Source: a virus. Taken from it: 43,033 nt of DNA. Below, piece by piece: positions 1-43,033 of the stretch. The translations under genes and the position numbers were made by a program. How positions within the stretch are numbered: position 1 is the first letter of the stretch; every line of letters begins with the position of its first letter. The stretch covers positions 1-43,033 of IMG/VR virus record IMGVR_UViG_3300025732_000083; one strand, 5' to 3'. The notes under the pieces are model-generated. The model had not been told where the DNA came from and made no database searches. It was given only the letters and a program-made list of their open reading frames with translations.

Positions 1-85
1 CAGACTCTTCCCCTTGCATGTACCCATAAGCGCCAGCCGCCCCGGCAGCAATCATGACGGCCAGCGCAGTGTAGGCGATGTTCAT
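1..85 (-). CDS. Membrane-anchored small protein, possibly Rz-like spanin (5' part only)
   Basis: This gene is cut by the window edge after 28 codons. It starts with ATG at 85 and shares an ATGA overlap with the stop of the preceding gene. The visible part is an N-terminal hydrophobic segment (about residues 4-22, rich in Ala and Gly), which suits a signal anchor. It is the last visible gene of a lysis cassette holding an endolysin, a holin-like protein and a lipoprotein, where i-spanins (Rz) are usual. The periplasmic coiled-coil part that would prove this is outside the window, so the spanin call is inference. Confidence 0.45.
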   Translation of the reverse strand, partial: MNIAYTALAVMIAAGAAGAYGYMQGEES

Positions 86-246
86 TTTGGCGGAACCTTG
101 GTGCCGTCCAATTTCTTATGCATCTTCACCATCTTGCAAACTTCGACCTCTTTGCCCTTTTGCTTTTCCTTGTGGCAAACCTTTTTAGTTTCAGCAGCAA
201 ACAAAACCAATGGCACAAAGGCCAGAATCGCGATTAAGGTTTTCAT
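82..246 (-). CDS. Small exported protein with two cysteines
   Basis: A 54-residue protein with a clear signal peptide: MKT, then a hydrophobic stretch, with likely cleavage near FAAE at about residues 16-19. The mature part is short, strongly basic and Lys-rich, with two Cys (about residues 24 and 37) that could form a disulfide in the periplasm. It overlaps its neighbours by ATGA on both sides, which strongly supports the frame. I recognise the general type as a recurrent small gene in lysis and tail regions of environmental phages, but no function is known to me. Confidence 0.7.
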   Translation of the reverse strand: MKTLIAILAFVPLVLFAAETKKVCHKEKQKGKEVEVCKMVKMHKKLDGTKVPPK

Positions 247-662
247 TCATCTCTCTCCGGGTGGGGTGGTTGAATAGGCGCAGGTTTGCCAGCGTAGCCA
301 GCGGCAACAGGATCTCCCTCGCTGCGTACTGTGGTCACTGTAGTGGTCACAACGGGCGCAGGCTTGGGTGGTGTTGCATCTTTAAAATCAGCAGCGGTTG
401 AGATGCCGGGCGGCGGCACGAAAGCATCTTTACCCTTGACGGCAATGAGGGTTGCCAGCGCGCCGAGTATGTACTTGGACATATCCGACAACAGCAGGAA
501 AAAATTCTTATCTGCCGGAGCCATGCCCGACATTGGCTGGGTGACAAACACCACCGAGTACATCGACAGACCTGCCATGATGACCAAGATTAAGCAGAAA
601 GTAATCCCGATTGTGAACTTCAGTAGAGAATTCAGTTGTTCTTCTGTGGCTTTCAAGATCAT
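243..662 (-). CDS. Holin-like membrane protein
   Basis: A 139-residue protein with two predicted membrane segments, about residues 14-40 and 55-76. A Pro-rich, Thr/Val-rich cytoplasmic tail follows and ends in charged residues. Size, two-helix topology and position two genes downstream of an endolysin fit a class II-type holin, which would form the inner-membrane lesion that triggers lysis. No family signature is decisive, so the holin role rests on topology and context. Start and stop both take part in 4-base ATGA overlaps. Confidence 0.6.
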   Translation of the reverse strand: MILKATEEQLNSLLKFTIGITFCLILVIMAGLSMYSVVFVTQPMSGMAPADKNFFLLLSDMSKYILGALATLIAVKGKDAFVPPPGISTAADFKDATPPKPAPVVTTTVTTVRSEGDPVAAGYAGKPAPIQPPHPERDE

Positions 663-865
663 GGCTTTACCTTTTCAGGTTGAGTAACGTCTTCAGGACA
701 AGTGCCGGTTGCAGTGCAAATAGGTGGTTTGCATTCTGTAGTCTCCCAGTTCTTTGGGTCTTGGCAAGGATACCTAAACCGATCACTGCAAGCACTAGCC
801 GCCCAGCACATGCAGAGCATGAGCGTAATGTTTCTTACGGTCTTCAAGTCCAATGGTGCCTCCAT
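659..865 (-). CDS. Small lipoprotein of the lysis cassette
   Basis: A Cys-rich protein of up to 68 residues. The N-terminus has basic residues (KTVRN) followed by a hydrophobic run ending in ASAC-S, a plausible lipobox with Cys26 lipidated. The mature part contains a CSDRFRYPCQDP-type segment and three further Cys. I recall this style of protein from environmental phages. The beginning overlaps the endolysin C-terminus by 71 bases in another frame. The start is uncertain: ATG 865 lacks a clear ribosome site, while TTG at 853 sits behind a GGAGG. It might serve as an o-spanin-like partner, but this is unproven. Confidence 0.6.
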   Translation of the reverse strand: MEAPLDLKTVRNITLMLCMCWAASACSDRFRYPCQDPKNWETTECKPPICTATGTCPEDVTQPEKVKP

Positions 866-1433
866 TAATTCGTTTGGTCATAGTCAAAATGTCGCCGGCA
901 TCAGCCAGCTTATTCAGGCTTGTTTGCTCCCAGTACCAGCAAGCACTTTGTGCCGCGCCTTCAAATGTCTGCATGTACTCAGACGCTTCCTCTGGCGTGA
1001 TTCCAAGAGATGATGCAAACCAGAAATAATTATCTTTGCCAGTGACTTGGATTAGACCGCGGCCCTTGTACCGAGCACCATCTCCTGAAGACTCCGGGCC
1101 ATTGCCCATGCGATTGGCATAGACCTTGTTTGCAATTTTGTCTGGTTGCCGGGCATAAGCGTTGGCGGTTGCTTGATCTTTAAAATACTTATCAAAAGTT
1201 TTTAGTAAGCCAGCAGCGCTGTAGTTTAGGTTTTCTGTCAGCCATACGAATCCGCCAGACTCATGGCCACACTGCGCCATGAACGCAGCGATGCGCTTCG
1301 GTGTATTGATCTCGTAGTCTTCAAGCAATGACTTGCCGACAAGCTCGACCTGCCTGCCAAACAGCGCGTCGTACCATTGCTGTGGGTACTTAGTGTTTGG
1401 CACCAACTGCTTGAACTGTTGCATCGTAATCAT
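795..1433 (-). CDS. Endolysin, glycoside hydrolase family 19 (chitinase-like muramidase)
   Basis: A 212-residue lytic enzyme expected to cleave the glycan strands of peptidoglycan at the end of infection. It shows the GH19 signature: catalytic Glu58 in CGHESGGF, a second acidic residue Glu67 in WLTENLNYS, and the substrate-cleft motif YKGRGLIQVTG near residues 122-132. There is no signal peptide or SAR segment, so it would need the holin encoded downstream to reach the wall. It is unrelated to the GH24 endolysin at 41283-41747, which fills the same role in the other cassette. Confidence 0.93.
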   Translation of the reverse strand: MITMQQFKQLVPNTKYPQQWYDALFGRQVELVGKSLLEDYEINTPKRIAAFMAQCGHESGGFVWLTENLNYSAAGLLKTFDKYFKDQATANAYARQPDKIANKVYANRMGNGPESSGDGARYKGRGLIQVTGKDNYFWFASSLGITPEEASEYMQTFEGAAQSACWYWEQTSLNKLADAGDILTMTKRINGGTIGLEDRKKHYAHALHVLGG

Positions 1434-1681
1434 TCTTCACCCCTCAGTTCACGGACAACTTTTATTCTAAGGTCTTTCATTTTGCGTGTTTCTTCTTCAG
1501 CTCGACGCAACGCATTGTTCATATCCATGTACATCACACCCATTACAGGCAAAGCAATGACTAACACAAAACACAAGACCACCACGGCGATGAGTAAAGA
1601 CCACGGTACGTCTGACTCGTTCGAAGCAGGAGCATGGTTCCGACGTACCACGCCACGACGAAAAGGATTGCTCCAACCCAT
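1430..1681 (-). CDS. Small membrane protein with coiled-coil tail
   Basis: An 83-residue protein with a basic N-terminus, one membrane helix (about residues 27-50) and a charged amphipathic C-terminal helix (about 52-83). This topology resembles i-spanins or phage antiholin-type proteins. It overlaps the endolysin start by ATGA. Its first 121 bases overlap the end of the preceding gene in a different frame, unusually long for this genome, so the true start could lie further in. No family is recognised. Confidence 0.6.
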   Translation of the reverse strand: MGWSNPFRRGVVRRNHAPASNESDVPWSLLIAVVVLCFVLVIALPVMGVMYMDMNNALRRAEEETRKMKDLRIKVVRELRGEE

Positions 1682-2271
1682 ACCGCTTCTTCTTTCCTTT
1701 TTCTAGCCAGTCTGCGCTGTCTTGCCGCCTCTATCTGCATCTTTGCAGTTTCACGCTTATGCGCTTCGTCCTGCTCAATAACGATCTGCTTCCACATTGC
1801 TTCGTACTTAGTCCACAATGCACCCAATTCAGGTGGCGCTTTATAAACCATTGTCTCGCGTAACTCTGCCAGCATTGCATCCAACCTTGACCGGATGATG
1901 ACGCGCATCAACGCACGTTTGCCTATGCTCTCCGTGCCGGTATAAACCTGCTGTGCCTCTGCCTCCTGCTGGATAAACACCTTGCCGATCTTGTCGTACT
2001 CATCCATCAATGCACCCAGATCATTACCAATCTGGATAAACACATCATTCGGGTCAGCCTTGCCAATCTCCTGTACCCTTGCAACCTCCTCGTTGTACTG
2101 AATCTTCTGGGCGTTGGTCGGGTTCTTGATCTTCCCGAACTGAGTCTTCAGATCATCCAGTACATCCTTGACCTCCCCGGCTGCCCCCTTTATGTCCTTG
2201 TATAACTGACAGCCTTTTTTTACGGCAGCGACAGCAGCATTGGCAGCAGCAAGTAGAGTTAACGGGTCCAC
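1561..2271 (-). CDS. Coiled-coil protein with C-terminal membrane anchor
   Basis: A 236-residue protein starting with GTG at 2271; no ATG is available nearby. The N-terminal part is Ala/Lys/Asp-rich and helical (LLAAANAAVAAVKKG followed by long amphipathic helices). Residues about 200-222 form a single membrane helix after a strongly basic stretch (RRLARKRK). The N-terminal sequence is of a kind often found downstream of tail-fibre genes in podoviruses, but the function is unknown. It sits between the fibre-linked genes and the endolysin of cassette A. Confidence 0.75.
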   Translation of the reverse strand: MDPLTLLAAANAAVAAVKKGCQLYKDIKGAAGEVKDVLDDLKTQFGKIKNPTNAQKIQYNEEVARVQEIGKADPNDVFIQIGNDLGALMDEYDKIGKVFIQQEAEAQQVYTGTESIGKRALMRVIIRSRLDAMLAELRETMVYKAPPELGALWTKYEAMWKQIVIEQDEAHKRETAKMQIEAARQRRLARKRKEEAVWVGAILFVVAWYVGTMLLLRTSQTYRGLYSSPWWSCVLC

Positions 2272-2274
2272 ATA

Positions 2275-2556
2275 TTAAAAGAGATGCAACTGCTTTTTCA
2301 TGGCAATCAATTCCTCGCGCAAGGCATCGTTCATCTCCTCGCACTTGCGGTTCTGTTCCTCGACAGCAGCCAGCCTATCAGACAGGCGTGTGACTTCCTC
2401 GCGCAGGGTCGTGATGACCTGCTGCCACGCAGCGTCAGTAACATCAGCGGCCTTGTTGCTGCGGCTGTCAGCCATGATCTTCTGGTACATACCGTAGGCA
2501 CCAGCTCCAGCAGCAGCGATGCCGACGCCAAGGTTAGTCAGCCAATCCTGCATCAT
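2275..2556 (-). CDS. Small membrane-anchored coiled-coil protein
   Basis: A 93-residue protein. The first 25 residues are Gly/Ala-rich and hydrophobic (GVGIAAAGAGAYGMYQ), then the chain becomes a heptad-like coiled coil (about 45-90, with LREEVTRLSDRLAAVEEQ). A holin-associated or tail-chaperone role is possible; neither can be shown. The start ATG overlaps the stop of the upstream gene (ATGA), which fixes the frame. Confidence 0.7.
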   Translation of the reverse strand: MMQDWLTNLGVGIAAAGAGAYGMYQKIMADSRSNKAADVTDAAWQQVITTLREEVTRLSDRLAAVEEQNRKCEEMNDALREELIAMKKQLHLF

Positions 2557-3083
2557 ACCTCCACCATAATATTGATAGTGCCGGAGTCGAAGGTATCCGT
2601 GCCGTTGGTTGTTGTAATGCGAAGACGAGTTAACGTATCACTTAAAGTTTTTTCTCCAGCGCCCGTCATTGTGGCGGCAGTATCTTGTTTAAGCGCGTGA
2701 GAACTTACCCACAAATTACTACCTACAAATGTAATTACCATGTGACCGCTTATTATGTTTGATGCTTGGGTCGAACGTATAGCAAAGCCGGCGGTGCTGC
2801 CAGAAGTGTTTGGTGAAGAACCATTTGGTATAGATGATGATGTGGAAATGTACCCAGTATCTTCAATACCGCCGGCGTCACCAATTTGAACTAACGGTAG
2901 ACTTGTACCATTTGTACTTAAATTACTAAACATCACTGTAATCCGCTTTGCCCCAGACGGAATATCATTGAAGTCAACAGAAGTGCCTGAAGCTGTTTGT
3001 GCTGTGTATAAAATTAACGGACGCGCGCCTTCAGCATTAGCTGCTGAATCTGCAAAATCAGCTAAATCTCTTGACCTTGTCAT
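2553..3083 (-). CDS. Tail-associated beta-rich protein, possible fibre tip or receptor-contact protein
   Basis: A 176-residue protein rich in Ser, Thr, Gly and Asn, with alternating hydrophobic residues that suggest beta structure. A short helical head (SRDLADFADSAANAE) opens the chain; such heads are frequent in small virion proteins next to tail fibres. It lies two genes downstream of the fibre in cassette A and has no counterpart in cassette B. The host-contact role is inference from position and composition. Confidence 0.6.
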   Translation of the reverse strand: MTRSRDLADFADSAANAEGARPLILYTAQTASGTSVDFNDIPSGAKRITVMFSNLSTNGTSLPLVQIGDAGGIEDTGYISTSSSIPNGSSPNTSGSTAGFAIRSTQASNIISGHMVITFVGSNLWVSSHALKQDTAATMTGAGEKTLSDTLTRLRITTTNGTDTFDSGTINIMVEV

Positions 3084-3253
3084 TGACCTTCTCCTTCATT
3101 AACTTGTGGCTCCGGGTCAGAAACCTCGGTAATACCGATAGCGTTTTTTTCTTGGATCGTAGTGAGCCGCAGCCAGTTGGCTGGGTACGAATTACCGGCG
3201 GCATCCTTAAATGGCGTATCCAGTGGCAGCGGTTGTCCGTTCAGCAGAAACAT
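3080..3253 (-). CDS. Fibre-linked protein, short form (N-terminal domain only)
   Basis: A 57-residue protein starting with ATG at 3253, three bases after the fibre stop codon. Its first ~45 residues match the N-terminus of the 142-residue protein at 42486-42914: both begin MFLLNG, share PLPLDTPF and PANWLRL, and continue to an IGxTE motif. The long form then adds about 95 residues that are absent here. The stop overlaps the next start (ATGA). This domain probably docks to the fibre or tail; the rest of the long form looks like a DUF4376-type extension. Confidence 0.75.
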   Translation of the reverse strand: MFLLNGQPLPLDTPFKDAAGNSYPANWLRLTTIQEKNAIGITEVSDPEPQVNEGEGQ

Positions 3254-3372
3254 GGGTTACCTCGCAAGAGCGTTCTTGAATGGGTTTTCGGCGAAGGCTG
3301 CGAAGATCATAGACGTTCCAGAGTTGTTCATCTCACTGGTGGAATTTCTGATCTTGAAGCCGTTTGAAAGAA
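3246..3372. repeat. Internal copy of the contig-end repeat (127 bp)
   Basis: These 127 bases are identical to 42907-43033. They cover the first bases of the fibre-linked gene and the last codons of the fibre gene. To the left, sequence diverges at once: 3245 is C and 42906 is T, and the reading frames differ further on. An exact 127-base match ending at a contig end is typical of a de Bruijn graph junction with k = 127. Confidence 0.95.
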
Positions 3373-5590
3373 TGTCGATTGCCTGCGTTGAACTAGTGCT
3401 TTCAACAGAAGACTCGTTGGCCCAAACAGTTTCGACAGCTTGGTTGTATTGGCTGCGACTTGTGTCTGCGATATGCCATGAGTTCACTGTCGCGGTTGAC
3501 TTAATCAAAATGTACTTCGGTCTAAACCCACAGAACACAAACGGCCCGTCAGCAGACGCGTTGCCTGTGTAGCTTCCGAACTTGGAAAAGCCTGCGACTT
3601 CGGCGAACAGGTAGGCGACCTTCGATCCAGTGCCAGTCCATTGACCGCTTGTAACAACGACGTTGGATGAATTCAAAGATATCCACGCACTTCCAGACGC
3701 GCCTTTTGCGGCGGTGCTATTCAGATAAAGAGCTTCCGTTGAGGCAAAACCAGTAAACCAAACAATCCAGTTTTCTGCTCCATCGCGTCGCTTGGTAATG
3801 AACATCTTTGGAGTTACACCAAGGTTGTGCGGAATGGTGTTAGCACCTGCTGCTTCTGTATACGTCACAATGTCGAAGCCCTGCGTTGCGCCTTCTTTCC
3901 AGTTCCACGCTACATAGGGGGTGCTGCTGAAGTTTACATTGGCACCACCAAGATCAACAGTGAACCCGTTGGAGAGAAACGCTGACACAGTACCGTCGTT
4001 GCCGTATCCCTGCGACGTATCTTCAGCATCTGTGCGGTTTGATGACAGCGTGTTTCCAGCGCCCCGAACGGCATCAATCAACTGATTATCACGAGCAACT
4101 GATGCGACGTTTGCTCTGGCTTTTTCCCATACCAGATCAGGTTGAAAGTTCAGGCCGGTGATATTGCGGTTTGCAGTTCCGTCACCAGTCCATGTCAGCG
4201 CATCAAAATACTGATTGCCCTTCAGGATAGTCGGCGCTGGCAGGTTCAGCGTGTTCAGTGCTTTGCCGCCCTTGTTATACGCAAAAGATGTTTGCCCAAA
4301 ATTGGCAACAAAAGTCGGCGAACCATTGCTAGATGAAGCAGCAACAAACGGCCTTGCATCACCAGCAGGTAATCCAGTAATTGTGCCTTTAGAAGTTCCG
4401 TTGTCAAACACTTGCAGTGTTCTGTTCGTTGCATCGTACAAACAGGTTATCGTGTTGCCGACAGTCGGATAGGTTATCGAACCCGAAGTAGCGCCATTGA
4501 TGAACGTAGTACCTACGTTATCAACGCCAGAACATCCTGCTCTGCTAGATGGTGCGCCAGTGACACTTGCTTGAACAGTGGTCAGGCAGACACCAACCGC
4601 ATTAGCACCGTTTGCCGTTCCTGTTTGAACTAGCTCCCACTGCCAAAGACCGGAGCCATCAGGAATTGCAAATGTCGGAACGCACAAAGTCCATGCTGCT
4701 GTATTACAGTTTTGACTTAGGTTCCCGTTTGTCGGCGCAATAAAAGTTGTTGGATGATCTATCGGGTTCCACGTCGCATAATTACCACGACCATTCCCGC
4801 CGTCAGCCCACTGTGTCGGCACATCCAGCATCGAGTCATACGTCGCGCCAGCAGTCACGCTGATGTTGTTCGGTGTCCAGTTGTTGCCGTTGCCTGAGCT
4901 ATCCTTACCGATAGCCGCAGCAGTAGCCGCGCTGTTGTCGGAGAAGTTCAGGTAAAAGCCATTTGTGCCGTAGGTGCCTGTGTACTTTTTCGGCTTCCAT
5001 ACGCCAGTCACTGCATCGGTTTCGCCGAATGACGATGGAGTCAAAGCTTGACCGTCGATGAAGTTGACTTCGGTAAGGTAGCCGTCGAAGTAGTTAGTCG
5101 GCCCCCATGCTTGCGTACCTATGTTTTGAACGTATCCCGCCCTATTCATGGCGTAATCGTAATTTGGCGGATACTTCGATGTGTCTGTCGAAACAAGTAC
5201 GTTGTTGACGTAGACGTAGTGAATCGTATTGGCGGCGTCCACTACCCACACAATGTGATACCAAGCAGACGGATCACGGTATACCGCTGGCCCTACTGCG
5301 CCGGCTGGGTTTGTCGTGTTGGTATCGTAGTAGGTATGAAGTTGATCGCTTGAAAAATACAAAGCAGCGATGCCATCATTCCCAGATTGGGACGTGCAAG
5401 ACATTAGATACCCAGATGATCCTAGCGAACCACGCTTTACCCACGCGCTCCATGTCCACTTCTTGCGGTTCCCATCAACGCTCGGAGTTCGCGTAAATGT
5501 TGCGCTCGCACTCGAACGGAGTCGTACCGACCGGCTGATCCGGTAGCCGTCGTCACCGGCCAATAACAGGCTGTTCTGTGTGACGCTCAT
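3257..5590 (-). CDS. Tail fibre / receptor-binding protein
   Basis: A 777-residue virion protein. The N-terminal part (about residues 15-215) looks like a LamG/concanavalin-like carbohydrate-binding fold, with WSAWVKRG, YFDGYLTEVNFIDGQ and a downstream KDSSGNGNNW segment. The middle and C-terminal parts are beta-rich. The chain ends in FAAFAENPFKNALAR, a C-terminal motif I recognise from many podovirus fibre proteins with DUF7483-like domains. It should determine host attachment. The start overlaps the previous stop. The downstream gene differs between the two cassettes, while the fibre's 3' end is identical in both. Confidence 0.85.
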   Translation of the reverse strand: MSVTQNSLLLAGDDGYRISRSVRLRSSASATFTRTPSVDGNRKKWTWSAWVKRGSLGSSGYLMSCTSQSGNDGIAALYFSSDQLHTYYDTNTTNPAGAVGPAVYRDPSAWYHIVWVVDAANTIHYVYVNNVLVSTDTSKYPPNYDYAMNRAGYVQNIGTQAWGPTNYFDGYLTEVNFIDGQALTPSSFGETDAVTGVWKPKKYTGTYGTNGFYLNFSDNSAATAAAIGKDSSGNGNNWTPNNISVTAGATYDSMLDVPTQWADGGNGRGNYATWNPIDHPTTFIAPTNGNLSQNCNTAAWTLCVPTFAIPDGSGLWQWELVQTGTANGANAVGVCLTTVQASVTGAPSSRAGCSGVDNVGTTFINGATSGSITYPTVGNTITCLYDATNRTLQVFDNGTSKGTITGLPAGDARPFVAASSSNGSPTFVANFGQTSFAYNKGGKALNTLNLPAPTILKGNQYFDALTWTGDGTANRNITGLNFQPDLVWEKARANVASVARDNQLIDAVRGAGNTLSSNRTDAEDTSQGYGNDGTVSAFLSNGFTVDLGGANVNFSSTPYVAWNWKEGATQGFDIVTYTEAAGANTIPHNLGVTPKMFITKRRDGAENWIVWFTGFASTEALYLNSTAAKGASGSAWISLNSSNVVVTSGQWTGTGSKVAYLFAEVAGFSKFGSYTGNASADGPFVFCGFRPKYILIKSTATVNSWHIADTSRSQYNQAVETVWANESSVESTSSTQAIDILSNGFKIRNSTSEMNNSGTSMIFAAFAENPFKNALAR

Positions 5591-6447: not shown

Positions 6448-7287
6448 TTACCCCTGAACAGGTGTCCAATTAGTTGAAGTGTCTGGCACTTGAGTCCAAA
6501 TCACAGTATTGCCGTTGATTATATTCCAATTTGTCGGATTATCAGAGGCTTCCGTCCACAATGTAGACTCATTTGCCGCCTCTGTCCAAATTGTCGTTTC
6601 GTCGGGAATAGGTTCCCAAAGTTTCGTACCGTTTGCCGTTATTACCGAAATGGCATTCGACAACCACGCTGCTGAAAATACTTGGGTCGCATTCGCCGTA
6701 ACATTCGACTCGGCTGGTAAATCAACCGCGCCTTCGTAAACTGCCAATGCTGTTGCGCTGCCGTCCGATTCTGTCGCAGACAGGAATTCGGCCAGAAACA
6801 CTCGTTGGCCGTCTGCCGCAACCGCCGAAACTCCGGCAACTGTCAACCCGCCAAGATAAATCTGCTGACCGTCGGCAGTGACGGCCGACAAAGCAAACGG
6901 TTCGGCTTGGCTGGTTTGTATCCGGGTGCCGTCTGCTGTAACTGCTGTAACGCCAGCCGGGCTGGCTGCGCCTTCTCCAACGTAGACGCCGTCTGCTGCC
7001 ACCGTAGACACGGCACTAACAACCGCCGCACCGACGTCAATCTGCGTTGCTTCGGCGACTACGTTAGAAACCGCACTGACTGTGCAAGACGCTTCAAATA
7101 GGAAACCACCGTTGGCCGTAACTGCTGACTCGGCCGTCGAACGCGCCCCGTAAATGGCGTAATCGGACGTGCCGTACAGGCTGGTGCCGTACGCGCCGGC
7201 ACCGTAGTTGCGGCCAGCGTCAACGTAATTGGTGACGCCAAAAAGGCTGTCGCCGTAGTTACCTACGCCGTAGCCGCGCCCAGCCAT
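6448..7287 (-). CDS. Repeat-rich virion protein (tail or head decoration)
   Basis: A 279-residue protein in three parts. Residues 1-50 are a Gly/Tyr-rich segment (GRGYGVGNYG, GAGAYGTSLYG). Residues about 50-230 hold some nine degenerate units of about 20-23 residues, built around SAVTADGxxI. Residues about 230-279 hold a second repeat based on TxxWT (IWTEA, LWTEA, NWNII, IWTQV, NWTPV). Such solenoid-like repeats suit an extended or trimeric beta structure on the virion surface. No enzyme motif is visible. It sits between fibre and neck genes. Confidence 0.7.
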   Translation of the reverse strand: MAGRGYGVGNYGDSLFGVTNYVDAGRNYGAGAYGTSLYGTSDYAIYGARSTAESAVTANGGFLFEASCTVSAVSNVVAEATQIDVGAAVVSAVSTVAADGVYVGEGAASPAGVTAVTADGTRIQTSQAEPFALSAVTADGQQIYLGGLTVAGVSAVAADGQRVFLAEFLSATESDGSATALAVYEGAVDLPAESNVTANATQVFSAAWLSNAISVITANGTKLWEPIPDETTIWTEAANESTLWTEASDNPTNWNIINGNTVIWTQVPDTSTNWTPVQG

Positions 7288-7291
7288 CGCT

Positions 7292-7687
7292 TTAGGCCAG
7301 TGTTACGACAAAGCTGGACGCCGGGAAGCGGAACACGTCGCCAGACGAAATCGTCTTGTTGTTGGTCAAGTCTGCCCACGCCAGCATATTGCCGCTGGAT
7401 GACGCGTCAAACACGGCAGCGGCGACAATCGTGCCCCAGCTTGCGGTGGCTGTCGGCCATTCAACGGCGCTGGTATTAGCCGCCTGTGTGGGGCTAGAAC
7501 CCGACACCGTGAACGCCATGGACTGGCGGGCGTAAGAGCCGCCCGACACCTCAGTGCCACCGCCGGCGTCTGTCGGCGCAGCGGTAAACAGGCCAACGTA
7601 CAGCGTCGAAGGGGCCGTGTAGGCCGTGTTGGTGAAGACGTGTTTTAGAACTTTGTCTTCGAGATAATCACTAAATGAACCTGCCAT
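7292..7687 (-). CDS. Conserved virion protein (tail-fibre-type, small)
   Basis: A 131-residue protein. It opens with SDYLEDKVLKHVF followed by YVGLFTAAPTDAGGGTEVSGGSYARQ, a pattern I recognise from a widespread family of small phage structural proteins near fibre and head-fibre genes. The rest predicts as a beta sandwich. The precise position in the virion is not known. Stop and start are closely spaced with the neighbouring virion genes. Confidence 0.7.
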   Translation of the reverse strand: MAGSFSDYLEDKVLKHVFTNTAYTAPSTLYVGLFTAAPTDAGGGTEVSGGSYARQSMAFTVSGSSPTQAANTSAVEWPTATASWGTIVAAAVFDASSSGNMLAWADLTNNKTISSGDVFRFPASSFVVTLA

Positions 7688-19828: not shown

Positions 19829-20161
19829 CTATCGAATCCGTCCAGTTTCAAGGTGTTTAATCAGCCAGCCGAGATACACCGCAGCCTTCTTGTAGTCCTT
19901 CACCGCGTCGTCCTTATGCCCGGCTCGGCTCAAATATTTCATTGCAGTCAGCCGCAAATGACCACGAAACTCGTCAACACTCGACTTCGCCGCCATGTAG
20001 TCAATGGTCTCAATACCGCCGACGTTGTAGTGCGCCGGGTTCACAATCTCGTCGTGTGCCCCAGCCAAATTCAACGCCGGCACCGGCTGGCAGTTGGGAC
20101 AGATCATGCCCAGCGCGGCCGTGTGATTGCTGCACACATACTTTGGGTCGTACTTAGTCAT
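19829..20161 (-). CDS. DUF3310 protein (SaV-like)
   Basis: A 110-residue protein. The DUF3310 core is clear: VNPAHYNVGGIETIDYMAAK, then FRGHLRLTAMKYLSRAGHKDD and KKAAVYLGWLI. The family is common in phages and is sometimes annotated as nucleotide kinase-related, without firm biochemical proof. Two extra Cys pairs at the N-terminus (VCSNH, CPNC) could bind zinc, which is not typical for the shortest family members. Confidence 0.88.
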   Translation of the reverse strand: MTKYDPKYVCSNHTAALGMICPNCQPVPALNLAGAHDEIVNPAHYNVGGIETIDYMAAKSSVDEFRGHLRLTAMKYLSRAGHKDDAVKDYKKAAVYLGWLIKHLETGRIR

Positions 20162-39124: not shown

Positions 39125-39330
39125 AAAGTTGTCGCGGTCAGCACCCCTGCATTGTCCACCACCAATTTCCAGCGGGTGCCATCCGGCGAACGCAAAATAA
39201 GGCGCTGCGGCTCCACAATTTCGACGTCTTCCAACCGCTTGCGGTTTTGCTTATCGGCCTGCTCCAAAAGCAAATTGCGCTGGGCTTCCAAGGCTTGGTC
39301 GTACCGGCCGGCGGGGGTTGGTAATTTCAT
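39121..39330 (-). CDS. Small virion-region protein of unknown function
   Basis: A 69-residue protein with a charged helix (YDQALEAQRNLLLEQADKQNRKR) and a short strand-rich end (LILRSPDGTRWKLVVDNAG). The end resembles a small beta module with DGTRWKL. It overlaps both neighbours by 4 bases. Such genes recur beside gp10-like proteins; their function is unknown. Confidence 0.7.
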   Translation of the reverse strand: MKLPTPAGRYDQALEAQRNLLLEQADKQNRKRLEDVEIVEPQRLILRSPDGTRWKLVVDNAGVLTATTL

Positions 39331-40814
39331 CGTTTGCCCCCGGCAACGCCGTCAACCCGGACAACGCCCACACGCCAGTCAGCGTCCGCATTGCCGTTGA
39401 TCTGCAAAGACACTTGCCGGCCAGTGAAACGCACGTCGGTATATGGCGTCAGTGTGTACGGGCCGTACGTCTGTTCTGTGCCTTCTGGCGTGAAACGAGA
39501 CTTGAACGTGATCTTGGTTTGGCCCTGCGTTCTCTCGTCCGGAATCAACTGCTGGGCGTGAATGATGTTGTCGCCTGCGCCAATCTCGGTCGGCCCGGCC
39601 AGCGCGTAGCGGGTAGCCACCAAGGGGGTGCCGTCAGCCGTCCAGCCGCTTTCATGGTCATACAGATAGCCGTCGGCGGATGTGGCCAACGGGTACTCAA
39701 AGACGCCTGACCCAGTCCAAGCGGTGCGCGACAGCGACCCGATAGACCAGTGTTTTTCACGGTAGTTGTAGACGACGTAACGGTCGTTTTCGGTGCTGTT
39801 GGCTGACGGGTAGAACCACCAGACTTCGCCAAAGGCGGTGTTCGCCCCGGCGTAAATCTTGGCCGACTGCACTTTGTTGATGTTGGAAAAGACGTAATCT
39901 TGGACGTCGCACGGCAGCGGGTTGACCACGCCGTCGTACATGAAAAAGCCGTTCGTCCCCATCCAGACAGCAAAGCTGTCCAAAGCTGCCATGGCGTTCG
40001 GGCCGGCCACACCACAGAACGAACCCACGCGCTCAAATCCAAAGACCAGAGGCGCACCAATGTACGTCATGGTGTGGACGTCGCTGTCGGTCCAGATCAG
40101 CGTACCACCGCGAATCCGGCGTGCGCCCATGATCGTGCCCGACGTCTGTAAGGGGAATTCACCGGCTTGGTTAGACGAGGTCTGTGACCAGACCGTCAGA
40201 GATTCTTGGTCAGCCCACTGCACCTTGCGCGGATCGCCGTCGGCTCCCAAGGCCGTCAAGAAACGCTCTGGGGTAACGACGACGCCTCGGCAGTCGGTCG
40301 GTGCAGACGCGTCAACGACAACGGCATCGTTGGCCGCGTTCAAGTCCCAATACAAAATGCGCCCGTCGTGCGGAGCGCAAAAAACGGGGTACTGGCCAAA
40401 GTTATCAATCGACCATGTTGCAGCTTCCAGCACCAAGCCAAGGCCGGGGCGCTCGACGCCGTAATCGGCGGTGCCATACGCGGCGATGCCGTAGCCCAAC
40501 TGATACACACTATCCACACGGCCAACCGTGTAGCTGGCGGGGGTGATATCGACAAACGACCCGCCACCGTACGCGTACAGTTTGGCGTTAGTGCCAATCG
40601 CAGCATACCGAACGTAATCGTTCGACTTCCACGCATACAGGCCGCGACAAACGCCGGTCAGTTGGGTGTTGCTTTCTTTGACCCAGCCGCCAACCGGCCG
40701 CATGGTGCCTTCAAACCAACGAACCAGATTGGCGTCATACCACCGACCGGCGGACTGATATTCAGTGCCGTTTCGGAATACGCCGGGCGGTAATTTGATC
40801 GGGTAAAGGGCCAT
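39327..40814 (-). CDS. Packaged-DNA stabilisation protein, P22 gp10-like
   Basis: A 495-residue tail-hub protein that would close the portal after packaging and provide the site for tail needles or spikes. It begins PIKLPPGVFRNGTEYQSAGRWYD (read in parts), then RGLYAWKSNDYVRYAAIGTN. Its repeated strand units around WxxxD (YWDLNAAND, LIWTDSDVHTMTYIG) indicate a beta-propeller, as in P22 gp10. On the closed circle it directly follows the Rz/Rz1 genes. It is the fixed right border of the variable lysis cassette. Confidence 0.85.
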   Translation of the reverse strand: MALYPIKLPPGVFRNGTEYQSAGRWYDANLVRWFEGTMRPVGGWVKESNTQLTGVCRGLYAWKSNDYVRYAAIGTNAKLYAYGGGSFVDITPASYTVGRVDSVYQLGYGIAAYGTADYGVERPGLGLVLEAATWSIDNFGQYPVFCAPHDGRILYWDLNAANDAVVVDASAPTDCRGVVVTPERFLTALGADGDPRKVQWADQESLTVWSQTSSNQAGEFPLQTSGTIMGARRIRGGTLIWTDSDVHTMTYIGAPLVFGFERVGSFCGVAGPNAMAALDSFAVWMGTNGFFMYDGVVNPLPCDVQDYVFSNINKVQSAKIYAGANTAFGEVWWFYPSANSTENDRYVVYNYREKHWSIGSLSRTAWTGSGVFEYPLATSADGYLYDHESGWTADGTPLVATRYALAGPTEIGAGDNIIHAQQLIPDERTQGQTKITFKSRFTPEGTEQTYGPYTLTPYTDVRFTGRQVSLQINGNADADWRVGVVRVDGVAGGKR

Positions 40815-40815
40815 A

Positions 40816-41298
40816 TCAGTTTTGATTTAATTGCCGGATTTGTTCGTACTGCTGGTAACAGGCTTCGAGTTCGATTCGGATGGCGTCGGCCCGTCTAGCT
40901 TCCCGGACAAGAAATTCTGCATCTTCTCGGTAAAGCTGTCTTCCGTCACACTGGCAGGGGCTTTCTGTAGTTCCGGTACTCGGGGGCACTGGCACGGCGG
41001 CTGGACGGGCAGCACGCTTGCGCAACCCGTCAACAATAGTGTCATGCTGGCGATTAAGGCGGGCAATTTCATCCGTTTTATCCTTCAATACTTTGCTGAC
41101 CTGTTGCTGCATTTCAAATTCGGTTTGGCGCAGTTTGCGTTCCATGTCGGCAACAGCCTGCGCTTCAGTAATTTTTTCTTTGTCCCACTTTGCTGTGACG
41201 TGTTCTGCGCCATCTCGCCAAGCAACAACGTGGCTGGCAGTCAAAACCAACGCCAGCAACGCATACCCGATCAACTTCCAACTTATAGACCAAGGCAT
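40816..41298 (-). CDS. Rz: Rz-like i-spanin
   Basis: A 160-residue protein with an N-terminal membrane anchor (about residues 7-27, IGYALLALVLTASHVVAW) and a long charged periplasmic coiled coil (about 30-90), typical of Rz proteins. With its partner Rz1, encoded in another frame inside it, it would fuse the inner and outer membranes in the last step of lysis. It overlaps the endolysin stop by 16 bases and ends just before the gp10-like gene. Confidence 0.88.
   Translation of the reverse strand: MPWSISWKLIGYALLALVLTASHVVAWRDGAEHVTAKWDKEKITEAQAVADMERKLRQTEFEMQQQVSKVLKDKTDEIARLNRQHDTIVDGLRKRAARPAAVPVPPSTGTTESPCQCDGRQLYREDAEFLVREARRADAIRIELEACYQQYEQIRQLNQN
40827..41072 (-). CDS. Rz1: Rz1-like o-spanin lipoprotein, nested in Rz
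   Basis: An 81-residue frame wholly inside the Rz gene, in a different frame. It starts MKLPALIASMTLLLTGC, a textbook lipoprotein signal with Cys17 lipidated, followed by Pro-rich sequence (LPVQPPCQCPRVPE). A nested, Pro-rich outer-membrane lipoprotein is the hallmark of Rz1. It would bind Rz in the periplasm. Confidence 0.85.
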   Translation of the reverse strand: MKLPALIASMTLLLTGCASVLPVQPPCQCPRVPELQKAPASVTEDSFTEKMQNFLSGKLDGPTPSESNSKPVTSSTNKSGN

Positions 41299-41747
41299 TG
41301 TCTGTATTCCTTCTGGCGGCGAATGGTCAGCCCTTTTAACGGCGCACCCTTGAATTTATCCCAGACAAGAATCTGCTGGCACGCACCCGCATAATCGCCG
41401 GCGTTCAATTTCTTCACCAGCGTAGAACCACAAAAAGCGCCTGTCCCAATATTGTATGACAGGCTTATATAGGCGTCATATTCGTATTGGTGCAAAGGCA
41501 CTTTCACGCATTTCTTGACGGCCCCTTCGTATTTGCGGATGTCGGTCAGCGCCCGATTCAACGCAGTCACCGGGTCAATCTTGTCGCCGTTTTTAACGCC
41601 TTCCGTTGTGCCAAAACCATAAGTTGGGACGTCGCCCGGTACGGGGGGTTTTGCGACAGGCTCAAAACCTTCGTGGGTGGCAATGCCGACCAAAGCGGCG
41701 GCGGATAGCGCCAGCGCGGCAATGGATGAACGGGGGTTTTGAATCAT
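41283..41747 (-). CDS. SAR endolysin, glycoside hydrolase family 24 (T4-type lysozyme)
   Basis: A 154-residue lysozyme cleaving peptidoglycan. The N-terminus (about residues 9-23, Ala-rich, IAALALSAAALVGIA) is a signal-anchor-release segment, so the enzyme is exported by Sec and activated on release. Catalytic Glu26 lies in THEGFEP; GDVPTYGFGT follows, with Asp39 and Thr42 of the active cleft. Cys79, Cys106, Cys123 and Cys152 could support disulfide control. It is the lysis enzyme of cassette B, in place of the GH19 enzyme of cassette A. Confidence 0.9.
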   Translation of the reverse strand: MIQNPRSSIAALALSAAALVGIATHEGFEPVAKPPVPGDVPTYGFGTTEGVKNGDKIDPVTALNRALTDIRKYEGAVKKCVKVPLHQYEYDAYISLSYNIGTGAFCGSTLVKKLNAGDYAGACQQILVWDKFKGAPLKGLTIRRQKEYRQCLGL

Positions 41748-41977
41748 TTGACGAAATACGACTTAAAAATAGCCCAAAGGGAGATGACGGCGACGGCTAG
41801 ACCGGACGCCCATTTCACAAAGGCAACGACGTTGTTGGCGGTTTTCCAAGCGTCAACTAAGTCTTCGACGTCCTTAGATAACTTCTCTACCTTTTCGGTC
41901 AAAAGTTCAACGTCTTTTCGAAGCAAAGCAGCTTCAATAGCGTCGTCAACTTGATGTTCGTTCGGAGCGGATAGCAT
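41744..41977 (-). CDS. Holin-like membrane protein of cassette B
   Basis: A 77-residue protein from ATG 41977; an upstream TTG at 41992 is less likely. A coiled-coil-like N-terminal part (LLTEKVEKLSKDVEDLVDAW) leads to one membrane helix (about 54-74, FVKWASGLAVAVISLWAIF). Single-helix proteins with a cytoplasmic coiled coil before SAR endolysins resemble pinholins or related small holins. It overlaps the endolysin start by ATGA and the preceding gene by 32 bases. Confidence 0.65.
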   Translation of the reverse strand: MLSAPNEHQVDDAIEAALLRKDVELLTEKVEKLSKDVEDLVDAWKTANNVVAFVKWASGLAVAVISLWAIFKSYFVK

Positions 41978-42257
41978 GGCGCAAATATTCAAATAATTCC
42001 GGGTTATCTTTCAGCAAAGCGATAATACCGCTTGCCACACAATGCACTTGCCGCTCTTTCATATGTAGCTGCATGACGTCATCAATCGCGTGGATCAATT
42101 CATGCAGTACCGTGTCGGCCTCAAATGCAGGTTGCTGCCCCCTTAAAATTCGGACAATCTGCGCTGTATAATCGTATTCCCCAAAAGCCCGGTTCATATC
42201 TTCGACAAATACAAGAGGTATGTCCCGGCCTAAAACTCGCACTACTTTTGGCAGCAT
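41946..42257 (-). CDS. HExxH metallopeptidase-like small protein
   Basis: A 103-residue protein. HELIH at 52-56 (VLHELIHAIDDV) is a zinc-peptidase motif; Glu68 or Glu87 could be the third ligand. An N-terminal segment, RDIPLVFVED, and a strand-rich VRILRG come before it. The fold would be a minimal zincin, like those annotated as putative metallopeptidases in many phages. It has no signal peptide and lies within the lysis cassette, two genes before the endolysin. Its substrate is unknown. Confidence 0.65.
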   Translation of the reverse strand: MLPKVVRVLGRDIPLVFVEDMNRAFGEYDYTAQIVRILRGQQPAFEADTVLHELIHAIDDVMQLHMKERQVHCVASGIIALLKDNPELFEYLRHAIRSERTSS

Positions 42258-42258
42258 A

Positions 42259-42474
42259 TTAAGAACACTTGGCTTTTTGCAGGTCTTCCATCTGCTTATT
42301 CAAAAATGCAATCTGTTTGTAAGCGCCTTGCAGCGCCTGCTCCATCTGCCACCAATTGATTTCAATTTGGCGGGCTTCTTCTCGCGACAATACGACGCTG
42401 CCGTCATCGTTTCGCGTCAGTGCAAAAGATGTTGCGGCTAATCCCATAAGAAAACCCAGTAACACCTTTTGCAT
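42259..42474 (-). CDS. Small exported coiled-coil protein
   Basis: A 71-residue protein with a signal peptide (KVLLGFLMGLAATSFA, cleavage at about residue 18) and a helical, Gln/Glu-rich mature part (EEARQIEINWWQMEQALQG), ending in Cys. It is probably periplasmic. It has the layout of the 54-residue exported protein in cassette A, although the sequences are different. The name or function is not known. Confidence 0.65.
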   Translation of the reverse strand: MQKVLLGFLMGLAATSFALTRNDDGSVVLSREEARQIEINWWQMEQALQGAYKQIAFLNKQMEDLQKAKCS

Positions 42475-42485
42475 AACGCCTCCGC

Positions 42486-42914
42486 TTAGTCAGTGGTTGG
42501 CCAGACCATTTGTAATGCGGCCAATTCATCTACCGTGGTGCAAGCAGTGACAGCAGCTTCGTTGACGTCCGACGCGGCCCGAATTGCGGCGCGGGCGGCC
42601 AGAACGTCAGCGGCAACCGCTATGCCCTTCTCTGTTGCACGAATGATCTTCCAATCACTGGGGGCGATCATGCTGCCGGCGGCTGCCTTGATTGCGGCAA
42701 TCGCACTGGCCTTGCACGTAGCGAGGTCTTTCGGATTGCCCGGACCCCAGTAGTAGCGGTCATCATACGCCGGGGCGTCAGGGGCTTCCGTTACGCCGAT
42801 GGAGGCTTTTTCCGCTGCGGTTGACAGGCGTAGCCAGTTGGCCGGGTATTGCGTACCGTCTTCGGTGGTAAATGGCGTGTCGAGTGGGAGGGGAACTCCG
42901 TTTAGTAGAAACAT
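42486..42914 (-). CDS. Fibre-linked protein, long form (DUF4376-like)
   Basis: A 142-residue protein with ATG 42914 three bases after the fibre stop. The first 45 residues match the 57-residue protein at 3080-3253 (MFLLNG, PLPLDTPF, PANWLRL). The remainder has WKIIRATEKGIAV and AAIRAASDVNEAAVTACTTVDEL, a pattern I recognise from DUF4376-type tail-fibre domains and small fibre-assembly proteins. It probably binds or chaperones the fibre. It marks the left border of cassette B. Confidence 0.75.
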   Translation of the reverse strand: MFLLNGVPLPLDTPFTTEDGTQYPANWLRLSTAAEKASIGVTEAPDAPAYDDRYYWGPGNPKDLATCKASAIAAIKAAAGSMIAPSDWKIIRATEKGIAVAADVLAARAAIRAASDVNEAAVTACTTVDELAALQMVWPTTD

Positions 42915-43033
42915 GGGTTACCTCGCAAGAGCGTTCTTGAATGGGTTTTCGGCGAAGGCTGCGAAGATCATAGACGTTCCAGAGTTGTTCATCTCACTGG
43001 TGGAATTTCTGATCTTGAAGCCGTTTGAAAGAA
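42907..43033. repeat. Contig-end copy of the 127-bp repeat
   Basis: Identical to 3246-3372 in all 127 bases. It closes the genome into a circle of 39,661 bp (3246 to 42906). It is not a terminal repeat of packaged DNA, since its partner lies inside the window, 3.2 kb from the left end. Confidence 0.95.
42918..43033 (-). CDS. Tail fibre gene, C-terminal end (partial, duplicate copy)
   Basis: Stop codon and the last 37 codons of the fibre gene, ending in ENPFKNALAR. They are identical to the end of the complete gene at 3257-5590. The gene is cut by the window edge. I read it as the same gene reached by the assembly through a second path, not as a second fibre. Confidence 0.9.
   Translation of the reverse strand, partial: LSNGFKIRNSTSEMNNSGTSMIFAAFAENPFKNALAR

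Follow-up and report, generated by a model that had tools for sequence, protein, structure and literature searches.

The window, a whole virus record of 43,033 nt that is classed as linear, very probably mixes two phages that an assembler joined through shared tail-fibre DNA, and its two lysis cassettes are best explained by a probable chimeric join together with ordinary lysis-module mosaicism. The first phage would be podovirus-like, with a circle of ~39.7 kb in which a lysis cassette (cassette B) with a one-helix holin-like protein (B4), a predicted SAR GH24 endolysin and nested Rz/Rz1 genes lies between the fibre module and a gp10-like gene. The second would carry RecT/RecE and an O-like replication protein, and a different cassette (cassette A) with a two-helix holin-like protein (A8), a soluble GH19 enzyme and its own nested Rz/Rz1 pair. 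A first-pass annotation of the window had placed both cassettes in one phage population, which is probably wrong, because the extension of cassette A and its composition fit a second phage.

Exact repeats of at least 20 nt in the window are limited to a single pair, an identity over 127 nt whose first copy (3246–3372) starts a segment, S, considered below, and whose second (42907–43033) coincides with the contig end, the mark of an assembly fork. A k=127 de Bruijn assembler leaves an exact 127-nt repeat at a contig end where its graph forks, and JGI assemblies use k=127. The terminal repeat is thus most likely the mark of such a fork, a graph history that we infer from the letters, and positions 3246–42906, with cassette B, would close as a 39,661-nt circle that places cassette B next to the fibre at one end and, at the other, next to the gp10-like gene (39327–40814, minus strand; phrog_3287), which encodes a virion structural protein of 495 aa. 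The core genes of the window are those for portal, major head protein, terminase, DNA polymerase, primase and helicase; we found no near-DNA match to positions 20000–43033 among isolate phages and no tRNA gene in the window. Read literally, the contig would be a single linear genome that carries the fibre twice, with A after the first copy and B after the second, and a fibre end is indeed present at both places. We rejected this reading, which is extremely unlikely: the repeat is exactly 127 nt long and ends with the contig, relatives have one fibre just upstream of the lysis genes and the gp10-like gene, as the circle predicts, and the record identical to positions 1–4260 (see below) continues on either side into a different genome.

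All genes of cassette B (40816–42914) lie on the minus strand. In the circle, B1 (142 aa; 42486–42914) is the ORF next to the fibre; its N-terminus is related to that of A1 in the other cassette, and B1 is followed by B2 (71 aa; 42259–42474), with an N-terminal hydrophobic segment, and B3 (103 aa; 41946–42257; phrog_1233). The latter has an HExxH motif (HELIHAIDD), is metallopeptidase-like and adjoins the lysis genes. The holin-like B4 (82 aa; 41744–41992) has one C-terminal hydrophobic segment. B5 (154 aa; 41283–41747) contains a GH24 phage lysozyme domain (PF00959, E=5.2e-35; 120.9 bits, cut-off 22.3) preceded by a weakly hydrophobic, Ala-rich N-terminal segment of signal-anchor type (residues 7–24, mean hydropathy 1.87 in a sequence test), so that B5 is predicted to be a SAR endolysin that would be exported by Sec, tethered to the membrane and released on depolarisation. 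B6 (160 aa; 40816–41298) matches profiles of Rz-like i-spanins and has an N-terminal hydrophobic segment, and nested in it in another frame, as judged from its sequence, is an 81-aa Rz1-like lipoprotein o-spanin (40827–41072). The contents first ascribed to cassette B, a SAR GH24 endolysin, a one-helix holin-like protein and nested Rz/Rz1, are thus all present, with the SAR character as a prediction.

Cassette A (1–3253), also with all genes on the minus strand, is cut by the contig end. From the fibre side it begins with A1 (57 aa; 3080–3253), the N-terminus of which is related to that of B1, A2 (176 aa; 2553–3083), which resembles tail-fibre families phrog_29482 and phrog_18673, and A3 (93 aa; 2275–2556), a coiled-coil protein with weak matches to Rz-like spanins, and continues with A4 (236 aa; 1561–2271) and A5 (83 aa; 1430–1681), which have one hydrophobic segment each, C-terminal in A4. 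The endolysin A6 (212 aa; 795–1433) lacks a hydrophobic segment and belongs to a GH19-type phage endolysin family by its match to phrog_181 (E=1.2e-72, covering the whole protein), its match to Pfam GH19 being weak and under the curated cut-off (3.6e-4). Beyond it lie A7 (68 aa; 659–865), lipoprotein-like by sequence, the holin-like A8 (139 aa; 243–662; phrog_25359), with two hydrophobic segments, and A9 (54 aa; 82–246), with a signal-like N-terminal hydrophobic segment. The GH19 endolysin, two-helix holin-like protein and lipoprotein-like protein previously assigned to this cassette are borne out by A6, A8 and A7. A search of bacterial and archaeal genomes with A6 gave 13 pattern matches, none of which was confirmed, so that no host or prophage can be named for the phage that carries A.

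The cassette had been taken to end at base 1, where it is in fact truncated: a further frame on the minus strand starts at position 84 and runs off base 1 (1–84), being the start of an Rz-like i-spanin gene. This gene is complete in a longer record described below (L250), where the i-spanin (6891–7367; phrog_1327) contains a nested o-spanin gene (7114–7356) with a TTG start and a lipobox, LLTAC. Nested Rz/Rz1 genes as a feature of B only were therefore an artefact of truncation. The spanins of the two cassettes are homologous, with 32% (Rz) and 41% (Rz1) amino acid identity when the A pair is taken from the longer record.

Both cassettes begin three nucleotides past the same fibre stop, as the first-pass annotation had noted and the coordinates confirm (fibre, 3257–5590; first ORFs starting at 3253 and 42914). 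The N-termini of A1 and B1 are related, over 81 nt at ~70% identity that adjoin the 127-nt identity, and unrelated DNA hence begins beyond the fibre stop, not at it. The endolysins are unrelated, GH19 type in A (A6) versus GH24 in B (B5), and hydrophobic segments number none in A6, one in B5 (N-terminal and Ala-rich), two in A8 and one in B4. Cassette A accordingly fits a soluble GH19 enzyme with a holin and cassette B fits SAR-type lysis, lysis modes that are prediction only. Of the proposal that a whole mode of lysis is replaced, the contrast in endolysin class (soluble GH19 versus predicted SAR GH24) stands, but a switch within one population does not.

We searched IMG/VR with the fibre, GH19, gp10-like and GH24 proteins (L-numbers label the contigs) and also scanned viral contigs for the 41-nt junction between the fibre and the first ORF of A. 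The only match to the junction was IMG/VR record 3300007363_000212 (15,618 nt; labelled L082, the whole record L250), and no third record of S emerged from the scan. This record is 100% identical to window positions 1–4260, with no mismatches, so that the fibre identity flanking the cassettes, previously given as at least 127 bases, is exactly 127 nt within the window but part of a 4,260-nt identity to the A-bearing record. Past window base 1, L250 completes Rz/Rz1 and then carries RecT, RecE and an O-like replication protein, rather than the gp10-like gene at 40814 into which the left extension had been expected to lead: no gp10-like gene occurs in the 8.6 kb of L250 beyond base 1, and neither it nor any other of the window core genes tested was found in L250. 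Past 4260, identity to the window falls to ~28–45% per 100 nt over ~4300–4770 and recovers to ~83% in the N-terminal part of the fibre (4800–5552), beyond which the two are unrelated. Because the A-bearing record leads to RecT/RecE on one side and leaves the window inside the fibre on the other, neither ‘one population’ nor ‘switch’ is supported; the two cassettes were not found with flanking genes in common at both ends, the only extension found for this A being the one to RecT/RecE. The gene content of L250, set against the window core of portal, head, terminase, polymerase, primase and helicase genes, indicates two different phages. The two records may come from different assemblies.

The DNA common to both phages is segment S (3246–4260, minus strand; 2716–3730 in L250), 1,015 nt that are identical in the window fibre and in 3300007363_000212. 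The window fibre (777 aa, minus strand; phrog_19943) has an SPRY-like region (residues 316–422) and a DUF7483 domain (residues 458–770); S encodes the latter, C-terminal domain, and the breakpoint at 4260 corresponds to residue 443, between the two. Since short-read inserts are probably shorter than S, the contig by itself cannot say which fibre version belongs to A. We take S to be truly the same in the two phages, without partial collapse during assembly, and a recent swap of fibre tips would probably account for it. On this view, assembly would have reached S by way of cassette A, gone on into the DNA of the first phage, followed the circle round and halted at the second encounter with the same 127-mer. 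Should the identity hold, the sharing of this 1-kb fibre tip by two apparently unrelated phages would be of more interest than the rest of the locus; it would suggest that they have a host in common and recently exchanged the presumed receptor-binding part.

Tetranucleotide composition was compared with a baseline of random 3.2-kb pieces of the window core, which correlate at 0.83 ± 0.04 with the rest of the core and at 0.61 ± 0.07 with the L250 extension. Cassette B resembles such pieces (0.84 with the core, 0.67 with the extension), whereas cassette A correlates at 0.74 with the RecT/RecE side of L250 and at 0.60 with the window core. The composition agrees with A belonging to the second phage and B to the window phage. 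For S the correlations are 0.65 with the window core versus 0.45 with L250, a measure that is weak for S and the fibre. This last value would suit a chimera in L250 instead of the window, with A and the window fibre truly adjacent and A misjoined to the L250 fibre. We consider this very unlikely, since an independent contig (L015) carries an 86% relative of the upstream fibre gene of L250, followed by a fibre and A1, and the composition of A matches the far side of L250.

To place the two cassettes among related phages, genes upstream of gp10-like genes were classed by iterated HMM search with HMMs built from the retrieved sequences. A GH24 endolysin precedes the gp10-like gene in the circle and in L014, L017, L187, L191, L193, L194, L293 and L296, a GH108 endolysin in L012, L163–L166, L169, L203 and L239, and a GH19 endolysin in L006, L107, L113, L114, L140, L143, L153 and L161; the distance to the gp10-like gene varies, with more than 1.5 kb between in L140, L153 and L161, and many other gp10-bearing contigs have none of these three classes upstream. 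Unrelated endolysins thus stand upstream of homologous gp10-like genes, that is, lysis modules are mosaic at a conserved slot. The first-pass suggestion to look for both cassette types in relatives was fruitful to this extent, GH24 and GH19 (and also GH108) being found before gp10-like genes, though across phages and not in one population. In a sizeable set of uncultivated phages, then, at least three unrelated endolysin families occupy the position in front of the gp10-like gene.

The closest relatives of the window, L163–L166 (gp10-like proteins 70–71% identical), have GH108 endolysins; they keep B4 and, mostly, B3. A gene-by-gene reading of L166 (6894–7998) gives B3 and B4, next a hydrophobic protein of 62 aa, and then an Rz/Rz1-like pair with a GH108 endolysin (PF05838, E=1.4e-27). 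GH108 stands there where the window has the SAR GH24 endolysin and Rz/Rz1. As the circle predicts, the order fibre–B1–endolysin–gp10 was seen in L006, L012, L014 and L017, and B3–B4–endolysin–gp10 in L163, L165 and L166. An A1-type first ORF after the fibre occurs in L032, L035/L036, L088 and L095, and in none of these did we find window core genes nearby.

Cassette A recurs in L083 and L097 with 96–97% DNA identity to L250, and in both the divergence sets in exactly at the Rz stop (L250 7367–7368, L083 1914, L097 1786), different genes lying beyond in each phage. Judged by these borders, cassette A is a discrete, apparently exchangeable module with a crisp right border. Directly before a gp10-like gene (38–40% identical to that of the window), L107, L113 and L114 carry an A-type GH19 cassette. 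The sharp borders and the A-type cassettes before gp10-like genes show that lysis modules have been exchanged among these phages over evolutionary time.

These same observations are the counterweight to a chimera: the right flank of A varies (L083, L097), A-type cassettes do occur before gp10-like genes (L107, L113, L114), in one contig (L016) an A1-like first ORF comes after a podovirus core, and the composition of S is nearer the window core. An A-bearing version of the first phage is not impossible, and a single population with alternative cassettes at one locus, in which an A recombinant coexists with the B form on the same backbone, would account for the contig itself, which joins A to the window fibre, for the A-type cassettes before gp10-like genes and for the crisp border at the Rz stop. 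We regard it as unlikely: the only extension found for this A leads to RecT/RecE, its composition matches the L250 phage and not the window core, and the contig alone cannot phase it with this fibre across the 1,015 nt of S. The assembly join is favoured by the exact 127-nt end, the 4,260-nt identity followed by divergence, the extension to RecT/RecE, the composition and the synteny of relatives. Fibre DNA common to two phages can thus make a contig mimic a switch of lysis mode.

Where co-existing viruses have regions that are alike, chimeric contigs have been documented (PMC5610896); here, by difference, the chimera is suggested by a second record, composition and the 127-nt end rather than by reads. 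The mosaicism has a classic parallel among P22-like/lambdoid phages: between L and P22 the spanins are 64% and 93% identical, but the holin and endolysin found at the same place are very different (PMC8022706). Similarly, A and B have homologous Rz/Rz1 pairs but different holin-like proteins and endolysins; unlike in L and P22, A and B most likely come from phages with unrelated cores, the slot has the fibre module on one side and the gp10-like gene on the other, and the gp10-bearing relatives hold three unrelated endolysin families. As to lysis mode, the contrast recalls the pinholin/SAR-endolysin pathway of phage 21 and the canonical holin–endolysin pathway of lambda (reviewed in PMC6139136), with B having a predicted SAR GH24 enzyme and A a putatively soluble GH19 enzyme and a two-helix holin-like protein, and clusters of Stx phages likewise differ in having predicted SAR or canonical endolysins (PMC8136144). 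The likeness to phage 21 does not extend to B4, which also accompanies GH108 in L166 and is thus not specific to SAR lysis.
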